The notes under the pieces are model-generated. The model searched no databases. It saw only the letters and a program-made list of their open reading frames with translations, and was not told the origin of the DNA. From Myxococcales bacterium (lineage in GTDB: Bacteria > UBA10199 > 2-02-FULL-44-16 > JAAZCA01), in the NCBI GenBank assembly GCA_012513515.1, contig JAAZCA010000009.1:1-64000 (forward strand): a DNA stretch of 64,000 nt, in the 5' to 3' direction. Of the stretch, positions 3,807-6,295 are shown piece after piece (positions within the stretch are counted from its first letter, which is position 1; every line of letters starts with the position of its first letter). The translations under genes and the position numbers were made by a program.

Positions 3807-3849
3807 GGGAGAAACTAGAAGCTAGATGCTAGAAGCGAGAAGTGAGATA
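3807..3849. repeat. Heptad array, left arm of the four-helix cassette
   Basis: About six tandem 7-mers on the plus strand: AGAAACT, AGAAGCT, AGATGCT, AGAAGCG, AGAAGTG, AGATAG. It lies between the stop of the four-helix gene and the start of the regulator. Its complement matches the array at 4229-4264 closely, so the two form inverted arms. Confidence 0.85.
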
Positions 3850-3850
3850 G

Positions 3851-4228
3851 TCATTTATAAGTACACCATTTATCGTGAAGAGCAAAAAGCATCTTCCCGA
3901 CTTCGTCATATTGTTGAGAATAGTAATTGTATTTTTCAGAATCGATATAATTGCACCGGAAGGAAAACTCCAGCCAAACCATGGTTTCTTCACATGATCC
4001 GGAGGAATCAATCAAATGGCGTTTAAAGATATTTTCAAAAGTTCTCTTAGCCCATCCTTCAGCTATGTTTGCAGGTATCGACCTTGAGGCCCTTCTGATC
4101 TGATCGGTCAGCCCGTACTTTTCCTCTCTTGGAAAAGTGCTTGTAAGCCGAAAAAGCTCCATCGCAAGATCAAATGATTTTGTATAAACTATCAAATCTC
4201 TGTAAGTTTTAATCTTTTCGCGTGGCAT
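3851..4228 (-). CDS. Four-helix bundle protein (S23/IVS-encoded protein family)
   Basis: A 125-residue protein with the family signature: KIKTYRDLIVYTKSFDLAMEL near the N-terminus, then GLTDQIRRASRSIPANIAEG (residues 40-59), the most conserved stretch. The family (PF05635-type) is best known from intervening sequences inserted in 23S rRNA genes of Leptospira and others, and is related in fold to the Avd protein of diversity-generating retroelements. Here there is no rRNA and no reverse transcriptase. The gene sits between two inverted heptad arrays (3807-3849 and 4229-4264) that touch its stop and start codons, so it looks like cargo of a small repeat-bounded cassette. Function unknown; nucleic acid binding is often assumed. 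Confidence 0.88.
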   Translation of the reverse strand: MPREKIKTYRDLIVYTKSFDLAMELFRLTSTFPREEKYGLTDQIRRASRSIPANIAEGWAKRTFENIFKRHLIDSSGSCEETMVWLEFSFRCNYIDSEKYNYYSQQYDEVGKMLFALHDKWCTYK

Positions 4229-4264
4229 CTTTCTAGCTTCTAACTTCTAGATTCTAGCTTCTGA
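4229..4264. repeat. Heptad array, right arm of the four-helix cassette
   Basis: Tandem 7-mers on the minus strand (AGAAGCT, AGAATCT, AGAAGTT, AGAAGCT, AGAAAG) running right up to the ATG of the four-helix gene. They are inverted relative to 3807-3849; on the plus strand CTTCTAG-nn-TCTAGCTTCT is shared with the complement of the left arm. Confidence 0.85.
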
Positions 4265-4371
4265 TTTAAAACACGCTACCGCCCATATGAGCATCTGGGT
4301 AGATGCGCACTTGCAAGGAACTAATTGATTTTACTACATTTTTTAGAATAAAATCCTTATCCGACAAGAAT

Positions 4372-4484: not shown

Positions 4485-4952
4485 TGAATAACGGAAAAGA
4501 GGCTCCCGGGGCCCATCTTTCAAGGTACGGTGTCATTTGCGGGTTACGGCCCGCAAATGCACCTCCGCTCTCGATCGGCGTAGCATAACAACCATGGATA
4601 CGCCGATCTCCGAGAGGCCCTTGAAAGATGGGCCCCTAGCGCCTCTTCTTTTCCGTTATTTAAGATGGGCAGTGTTTGATTTCGATGGTTTTGATGGGGT
4701 TCCCCTGTAGGAGACATTGGCGCGTCTACGAGACCGACCGTATTCGGAAGTCAAAAATCAGATCGCTTTCCTGATTTGGAGGCCGACAGCGGAGGACATC
4801 CAAATCAGCTTAAAGCGACTGATTTATGACGACGGATAGGGAGGCGAAGTGCGCCCGGTCGACGAAGGGGGAACCCCGTCAAAAGAGAAGTGAATGCGGG
4901 ACCTCATTATAATTGGTTTTCAGAACTGTTTGATCAAATCTTGATTTGTACA
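4485..4952. ncRNA. Structured ~466-bp direct repeat, copy 1 (two hairpin domains)
   Basis: Domain 1 (4487-4660): outer arms AATAACGGAAAAG and GGGGCCCATCTTTCAAGG pair with CCTTGAAAGATGGGCCCC and CTTTTCCGTTATT. They enclose a perfect 10-bp hairpin CATTTGCGGG/CCCGCAAATG with a 6-nt loop (4534-4559), and a second hairpin CTCTC+GATCGGCGTA / TACGCCGATC+GAGAG (4568-4616). Domain 2 (4689-4884): TTTTGATGGGGTTCCCC pairs with GGGGAACCCCGTCAAAA (one G-U). It encloses AAATCAGATCGCTTT with AAAGCGACTGATTT and, inside that, CTGATTTGGA with TCCAAATCAG. No open frame is convincing. A transcribed structured RNA is the favoured reading; a DNA-level hairpin element is the alternative. I recognise no named RNA family. 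Strand is not determined. Confidence 0.6.
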
Positions 4953-5085
4953 GACAATCGCCTTAGAAGCGGCAAGAAACTGTTTCGCACATTCGACTAT
5001 TTTAATTCAAGATCAGGATTTTGAAGAAGAAAGTTAAGGACCATCCAGACCGGATTTGAAATGAGGGTTTTCGTCAGTAGATTAT

Positions 5086-5123
5086 TATCCATATATATGG
5101 ACAATTATCCATATATACGGATA
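5086..5123. promoter_or_regulatory. Tandem HipB-type operator pair
   Basis: Two copies 20 bp apart. TATCC-ATATATAT-GGACA (5086-5103) matches the E. coli HipB operator consensus TATCC-N8-GGATA except one base, and TATCC-ATATATAC-GGATA (5106-5123) matches it fully. No hipB or hipA is in the window. A short open stretch begins at ATG 5126, three bases after the second site, but after about 19 codons it runs antisense into the NusG-like gene. It may be a remnant of a lost gene. Confidence 0.5.
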
Positions 5124-5182
5124 ATATGTCAAGCGCTGACTTCTTAGAATTGCTTTCAGAAATAGAACTTATCGATGATTGG

Positions 5183-5680
5183 TTATTCCTTCTCTATATC
5201 CGCGGCGGAGATATCGCATTTGATCTGATGATGCATGATCTCCAAAAGGACACGGACGCGGCCTGCTGCGGTGGCGGGTTTTTCGAGTATCCCGATGAGG
5301 TCCTTGAAGGCCCCGCGCCTGATGCGAACGGAGTCCCCCTTCTTCATCGTGAGCCCCTGTTCGATAACTCCCTCCCCACTCATGCGATCAAGTATCAGAT
5401 CCAGCATGCCGTCTGGAAGCGGAACCGGCTTCTCGCCGTCACCCAGTATTTTTCTGACCCCGCGTGTATAGCGAATCATCCTATGGAGGTTGGTGTCACT
5501 AAGATCGGCAGCCACGAATATATAAGATGGAAAGAGAGACTTCACGCGGCAGGTGGAGCAGCTCTTTCCCCGAACCGCACTGCGGATCTTCGGGGAGCAG
5601 GCCTCTATGCCCGCATTTTTAAGAAGGGCGCAAACACCGTCTTCCGACATAGGCTTTGTCTGGATCACGTACCATTCCAT
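5183..5680 (-). CDS. NusG paralog, RfaH/LoaP-like transcription antiterminator
   Basis: A 165-residue protein. The NGN domain covers roughly residues 1-105, opening MEWYVIQTKP and containing LFPSYIFV, the counterpart of the conserved FPGY segment of NusG. A C-terminal KOW domain (MKKGDSVRIRRGAFKDLIG) follows. Stand-alone NusG paralogs of this size (RfaH, UpxY, LoaP) bind paused RNA polymerase and let it read through long polysaccharide or biosynthetic operons. The start at 5680 was chosen because MEWYV is the family N-terminus; ATG 5689 is in frame three codons earlier. A perfect TATAAT lies 11 nt before the chosen ATG and there is no Shine-Dalgarno. The gene is alone on its strand between the two structured repeats. 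Confidence 0.85.
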   Translation of the reverse strand: MEWYVIQTKPMSEDGVCALLKNAGIEACSPKIRSAVRGKSCSTCRVKSLFPSYIFVAADLSDTNLHRMIRYTRGVRKILGDGEKPVPLPDGMLDLILDRMSGEGVIEQGLTMKKGDSVRIRRGAFKDLIGILEKPATAAGRVRVLLEIMHHQIKCDISAADIEKE

Positions 5681-5829
5681 AGGGATCATCTATTATATGA
5701 GAACGGTCAAAGCAATGTACAAATGAAGAGATTACGAAGGTTGAGGTTGAGTGTAACTATCAAAATATTTTACGACATATTTTATTTTCACTCATAATCA
5801 AATCTACAAGTAAGGATAATACCATTCAG

Positions 5830-6295
5830 TGAATAACGGAAAAGAGGCTCCCGGGGCACATCTTTCAAGGTACGGTGTCATTTGCGGGTTACGGCCCGCA
5901 AATGCACCTCCGCTCTCGATCGATGCATCTTATAGCCATTGACGCATCGATCTGCGAGAGGCCCTTGAAAGATGGGCCCCTAGCGCCTCTTCTTTTCCGT
6001 TATTCAGATGGGCAGTGTTTGATTTCGATGGTTTTGATGGGGTTCCCCTGTAGGAGACATTGGCGCGTTTACGAGACCGACCGTATCCGGAAGTCAAAAA
6101 TCAGATCGCTTTCCTGATTTGGAGGCCGACAGCGGAGGACATCCAAATCAGATGAAAGCGAATGATTTGTGACGACGGATAGGGAGGCGAAGTGCGCCCA
6201 GTCGACGAAGGGGGAACCCTGTCAAAACAGAAGCGAATGTAAGAGCCCATTGTAACTAGTTTTCAGAATTGCTCGATCAAATATTGATTTATACA
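5830..6295. ncRNA. Structured ~466-bp direct repeat, copy 2
   Basis: Same orientation and order as 4485-4952. Domain 1 is 5832-6004, domain 2 is 6032-6227. The hairpin b stem reads GATCGATGC (5918-5926) with GCATCGATC (5944-5952), while copy 1 has GATCGGCGTA with TACGCCGATC: three base pairs changed on both sides, so pairing was kept. The outer stem of domain 2 has C to T giving a G-U pair instead of a mismatch. The first copy-2 arm carries one mismatch (GGGGCACATC). An 80-codon open frame from 5875 runs through the hairpins and is considered fortuitous. Confidence 0.6.

Follow-up and report, generated by a model that had tools for sequence, protein, structure and literature searches.

The branched hairpin at positions 4487–4660 (+) of the window (the whole 64,000-nucleotide stretch of DNA analysed here) forms the left arm of a foldback repeat that is non-coding and built of two arms. 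We favour the reading that the pairing pattern of the repeat is more in keeping with a folded DNA strand than with RNA, because G-U pairs are scarce in its variable stems, the branched arm has no strand preference and the orientation relative to neighbouring genes is unbiased.

Two copies of the repeat in the window

The window holds two copies of the element, at 4485–4952 (+; a repeat match of 91–100%) and 5830–6295 (+), both intergenic and lying between protein genes. The repeat exceeds the hairpin with which we began: the second half of each copy is a separate, rod-shaped module. Copy 1 thus comprises the branched hairpin, here called Y (domain 1), a rod-shaped hairpin with conserved internal mismatches, called B (domain 2; 4689–4884, +), and a right tail (4885–4952, +) that terminates in TTGATTTGTACA and is common to several copies. 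Within Y, inner hairpin a (4534–4559, +) has a 10-bp stem (arms 4534–4543/4550–4559) which is replaced in other genomes, and a fixed loop, (G)UUACGG(C), at 4544–4549 (TTACGG in the DNA). Inner hairpin b (4573–4608, +; arms 4573–4582/4599–4608) has fixed UCUC and UCCGA on its flanks. The apical loop of B, GGAGGCCGACAGCGGAGGACATCC (4778–4801, +), carries the motif GGYYGACR..RGGARGAY. Two covariance models were used to follow the modules: R1 describes the 136-nt core of B, and R2 is a 99-nt model of Y built from six sequences. Y scores 108 bits against R2 in copy 1 and 101.7 bits in copy 2 (5832–6004, +), and the B cores (4719–4854 and 6062–6197, both +) each score 159.7 bits against R1.

A preliminary description of this DNA had proposed that domain 1 folds into two inner hairpins held by a long outer stem, and this fold was recovered in both copies, with stems a and b and the outer stem where they had been placed. 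As RNA, domain 1 folds at -107.6 kcal/mol (z -13.0), a value reached by none of 200 shuffles; with DNA parameters the fold is at -67.6 (z -14.3), and the full elements fold with z -13.3 (copy 1) and -12.3 (copy 2). The three pairs of stem b that were said to differ on both sides between the copies do so (G-C/A-U, C-G/U-A and U-A/C-G). However, domain 1 of the two copies has about 13 differences inside a patch of about 27 nt at the tip of hairpin b, against only about 2 in 149 positions outside it, and a single replacement of this patch, instead of three separate compensatory events, may account for all three paired changes. Since its changes form one patch, the window pair is by itself weak evidence for the earlier claim of selection on structure; what stands is that paired change conserves the structure among homologues, as described below. 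Copy 2 also has C replaced by A at one position of its left arm, which breaks a pair of the outer stem.

A gene for a NusG-domain protein, resembling specialised NusG paralogues, lies exactly between the two copies (5183–5689, -). NusG paralogues are known to read hairpins, and a link between this gene and the repeat is conceivable. Directly past the end of the gene is an AT-rich 20-nt tandem/inverted repeat (5083–5126; ATTATCCATATATAYGGAYA twice).

Conserved loops and replaced stems across genomes

The homologue collection and covariance modelling proposed as a check were carried out for both modules. An initial search with a pattern around the Y loop found 11 copies in genome G012, with 0–1 matches per genome for the reversed control, and among these copies stem a is fully replaced. 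R2 raised the count in G012 to 17 and matched 14 of the 46 genomes of the phylum at E 0.01, or 13 if the weak match in G034 (30.8 bits) is set aside. In a sample of 385 genomes, R2 matched 13 of the same phylum and one of another phylum (G223); the latter has six Y copies, and its aligned copy retains the loops. Across 14 genomes, the loop GUUACGGC (UUACGG) and the UCUC and UCCGA segments are nearly invariant, while the stems around them are fully replaced. In the six sequences of R2, both partners are changed in 20 of the 30 pairs, and the covariation is 0.707, compared with 0.07–0.13 when the partners are slid.

R1 likewise matched 14 of the 46 genomes, with 43 copies in G012. Because R1 describes one long hairpin, reading a true copy on its opposite strand still gives 30–42 bits, and weak matches were retained only if the loop motif was visible by eye. 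Three genomes (G018, G022 and G044) have matches of 30–42 bits only, within this opposite-strand range, and we therefore regard B as secure in at least 10 genomes of the phylum, although the loop motif is present in the alignment of these three as well. Within the apical motif, GAC and two A's are invariant in 68/68 rows and GG is present in 67–68 of them; the rod also holds fixed mismatches, and 14 of its 48 pairs covary in an alignment of only eight sequences. Searching 84,980 genomes with the B pattern gave 14 stretches, and only two species, both of this phylum, pass R1; the named public carriers are the "Deltaproteobacteria" MAGs CG11_47_16 and NC_groundwater_1218. Scans of viral sequences found no B and a single Y-pattern match, which lacks an R2 match and is a chance hit, and blastn against phages and plasmids gave no match to the repeat.

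Folded DNA strand or RNA

Covarying stems are usually taken as proof of a functional RNA, and RNA was also the initial reading here. The composition of the pairs goes against it. At variable stem positions of non-redundant copies, Watson-Crick, G-U and A-C combinations number 580, 4 and 6 in Y (0.7% G-U) and 1021, 20 and 10 in B (1.9% G-U), compared with 218, 25 and 1 (10% G-U) in the SRP RNA of 20 genomes of the same phylum. The difference in G-U relative to Watson-Crick pairs is significant for Y (p ~1e-10) and B (p ~2e-8), with the filters favouring SRP RNA a little, as its variable positions were counted without the 75% Watson-Crick requirement. Relative to A-C, G-U shows no excess in Y (4:6), a weak one in B (20:10) and a strong one in SRP RNA (25:1). 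Counting all pairs, the same three classes number 404/70/2 in SRP RNA, 660/29/7 in Y and 1369/55/21 in B, and most of the G-U pairs of Y and B sit at a few fixed positions. Strong covariation thus coexists here with a G-U scarcity that points to DNA, a case in which a caution for RNA discovery can be put to the test.

Strand and context add to this. The two strands of Y fold equally well, with no strand bias, and a comparison of the elements with their neighbouring genes (simple ORF calling) gave 12 cases with both genes in the same orientation as the element, 16 with both opposite to it, 14 convergent and 8 divergent, so that sense and antisense are about equally frequent. In Rfam 15, at the gathering threshold, only a tRNA was found in the window, in agreement with the preliminary description, which recognised no named RNA family; diverse copies of the repeat gave no gathering-level match either, and nothing at a permissive threshold.

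We consider it about an even chance that the repeat is a foldback DNA element that is not autonomous and depends on a protein acting in trans, which would recognise the arms as folded single strands. The repeat would spread through intergenic DNA as a non-autonomous mobile element, and its arms would fold when single-stranded, as on the lagging strand for instance. Recognition of the folded arms could then resemble that of REP hairpins by TnpA-REP or of attC by IntI, with the protein reading loops and mismatches, so that the stems would need only to pair. The copies themselves display the spreading, the fixed loops and the paired stems; we infer movement itself from their dispersal, and likewise the single-stranded step and the enzyme. 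If the arms are indeed substrates of a folded-strand recombinase, REPIN- or attC-like recognition would extend to branched hairpins of 100–250 nt, hinting at a novel enzyme in a little-studied phylum. Several observations speak against this reading: our searches found no enzyme, the G012 elements show no consistent target duplication, and B folds better on its motif strand (34/35) and carries conserved G-A and G-U positions. In addition, there are loops similar to RNA motifs (UNCG-like UACG, and GNRA-like).

Those last features would suit a structured non-coding RNA family, either an sRNA or an mRNA element carried on dispersed repeats, whose conserved loops would serve for protein binding or for tertiary RNA contacts. 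The conserved non-canonical pairs and the strand preference of B would be expected of such an RNA, and some copies lie within apparent operons, judging from the flanks as read (e.g. loci L109 and L262). We nevertheless think an RNA family unlikely, given variable stems in which G-U is near absent and hardly biased, unlike in SRP RNA, as well as the balanced gene orientation, the symmetric folding of Y and the lack of an Rfam match.

It is also improbable, in our estimation, that the repeats are functionless MITE-like palindromic debris, with arms kept complementary by template switching (quasipalindrome correction). Template switching makes, maintains and rewrites stems (PMC8794818) and could also remove G-U steps, which would account for the missing G-U intermediates, and the window copies do differ mainly in one patch. 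Such correction would, however, erase mismatches, yet no positions are better conserved across the phylum than the mismatches and loops.

Element architecture and known mobile repeats

Within the genome from which the window derives, 1.79 Mb in 42 contigs, a DNA search recovered two full copies of the repeat and about eight partial ones, B being the commoner part. The copies sit in unrelated intergenic contexts, and their composition varies: two copies on contig C19 consist of B with sequence similar to the right tail on both sides and without Y, and on contig C37 B is preceded by a different Y-shaped hairpin. The combinations follow a rule, with Y(+) or B(-) on the left and B(+) or Y(-) on the right. 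It holds for each of the roughly 17 arm pairs that could be listed by hand; these were read off tables rather than computed, and related copies among them are not independent. No fewer than two other types of hairpin are found in these arm positions (L073, L213 and L221 in G012; L026 on contig C37 of G000), one of them with CACGGAATCCTTCCGCG / GCCTCGGCTTTCCATG.

Whole elements in G012 share common ends, TGCAAAT..CACCTAAAAAG and AAAAGACGTG..ATTTGCA, with no consistent target duplication, and a DNA search found no longer element or coding counterpart with these ends among the match spacings seen. In G031, two copies (L103 and L104) are bounded by inverted ends of the GGGCGTGTCGTC type, and L104 has CTAG on both sides, a duplication judged by eye and as seen in an insertion-sequence-derived MITE. 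The outer arms travel with the core in G000 and G012. In G001, G003, G004 and G010 the cores are related but the outer arms are unrelated between copies, yet matched to their own partner: copies G001_3 and G001_4 score 102/136 in the core and 6 (random level) between their arms, whereas each arm scores 32–33/45 against its own partner. This pattern would be expected of a new class of mobile foldback DNA that passes on nothing but its hairpin core and, with every insertion, builds a fresh outer stem specific to the locus by copying target DNA in inverted form; we regard such a class as quite unlikely. In G013, the outermost stems of several copies (L097–L100 and L265) have CGTATAA and TATGT in common, placed around a stretch of about 6 nt that varies between copies and matches within each copy, somewhat like a Xer/dif spacer.

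REP hairpins measure 20–50 nt and carry GTAG (or CGTC) at their foot; a REPIN is a pair of such REPs, inverted, which RAYT / TnpA-REP mobilises. REP pairs occur in inverse orientation, require conserved mismatches in the REP stem and are bound by TnpA-REP as folded single-stranded DNA in a strand-specific manner (PMC8266576). Our repeat resembles REPINs and BIMEs in being intergenic and of high copy number, and in having two inverse hairpins (here as B(-)/B(+), Y(+)/Y(-) and Y(+)/B(+) pairs), combinations of hairpin types, fixed stem mismatches and compensatory changes (PMC3116915, PMC8266576). It differs in having one branched arm type (Y), in size, with cores of 99 and 136 nt and whole arms of about 175–260 nt, and in the foot, as 9 of the 14 Y copies lack GTAG/CTAC in either 60-nt arm and the motif is never at one conserved place. 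Nor is a RAYT linked to it among 30 sampled RAYT loci, which have neither B nor Y nearby, and on these three grounds (size, foot and RAYT linkage) we do not class the repeat as a REPIN. The likeness to attC lies in structure and in unpaired bases that would be expected to be read while the letters of the stems vary. We do not class the repeat as an attC site either, because neither window copy has GTTRRRY / RYYYAAC boxes; moreover, it is far longer, has paired arms and is not accompanied by a cassette array. MITEs, ERIC and Correia/NEMIS elements are likewise non-coding, intergenic inverted repeats, from which ours is set apart by internal mismatches that are conserved while the stems are replaced wholesale, by outer arms that are often unique to a copy, and by the lack of a consistent target duplication in G012. 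We favour, by analogy, a repeat that would work like a very large REPIN/BIME or attC and belong to neither.

As a mover of the repeat, RAYT (Y1/HUH) was rejected: besides being unlinked in the sampled loci, it occurs in almost every genome of the phylum, whether or not the repeat is there as well. Reverse transcriptase was rejected as well, with none in G000, G003, G012 and G013. A gene for a Y1 transposase (RAYT-like) does occur on contig C29 of G000 (L196, 1050–2660), amid many REP-like CGTCAGACGGAGCA copies that are unrelated to the Y/B repeat.

The intervening sequences of 23S rRNA are foldback elements too. Derivation from them, with their four-helix bundle protein (IVP) as partner, is suggested by divergent IVP gene pairs inside repeat copies on contigs C4/C29 and C30, and by an IVP-type gene that adjoins copy 1 (3851–4228, -), but it is very improbable and largely refuted by G013, which has both B and Y and no IVP gene; G012 has dozens of repeat copies and one IVP gene, most IVP pairs do not have these ends on their flanks, and the repeat lies outside rRNA. 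The IVP-type gene beside copy 1 is itself flanked by 39-nt inverted repeats of TTCTAGCTTC-like units (3812–4267). In G000 and G003 (L134, L132, L127 and L131), IVP genes form divergent pairs about a central palindrome, with a ribosome-binding site on each side and short direct repeats in the flanks.
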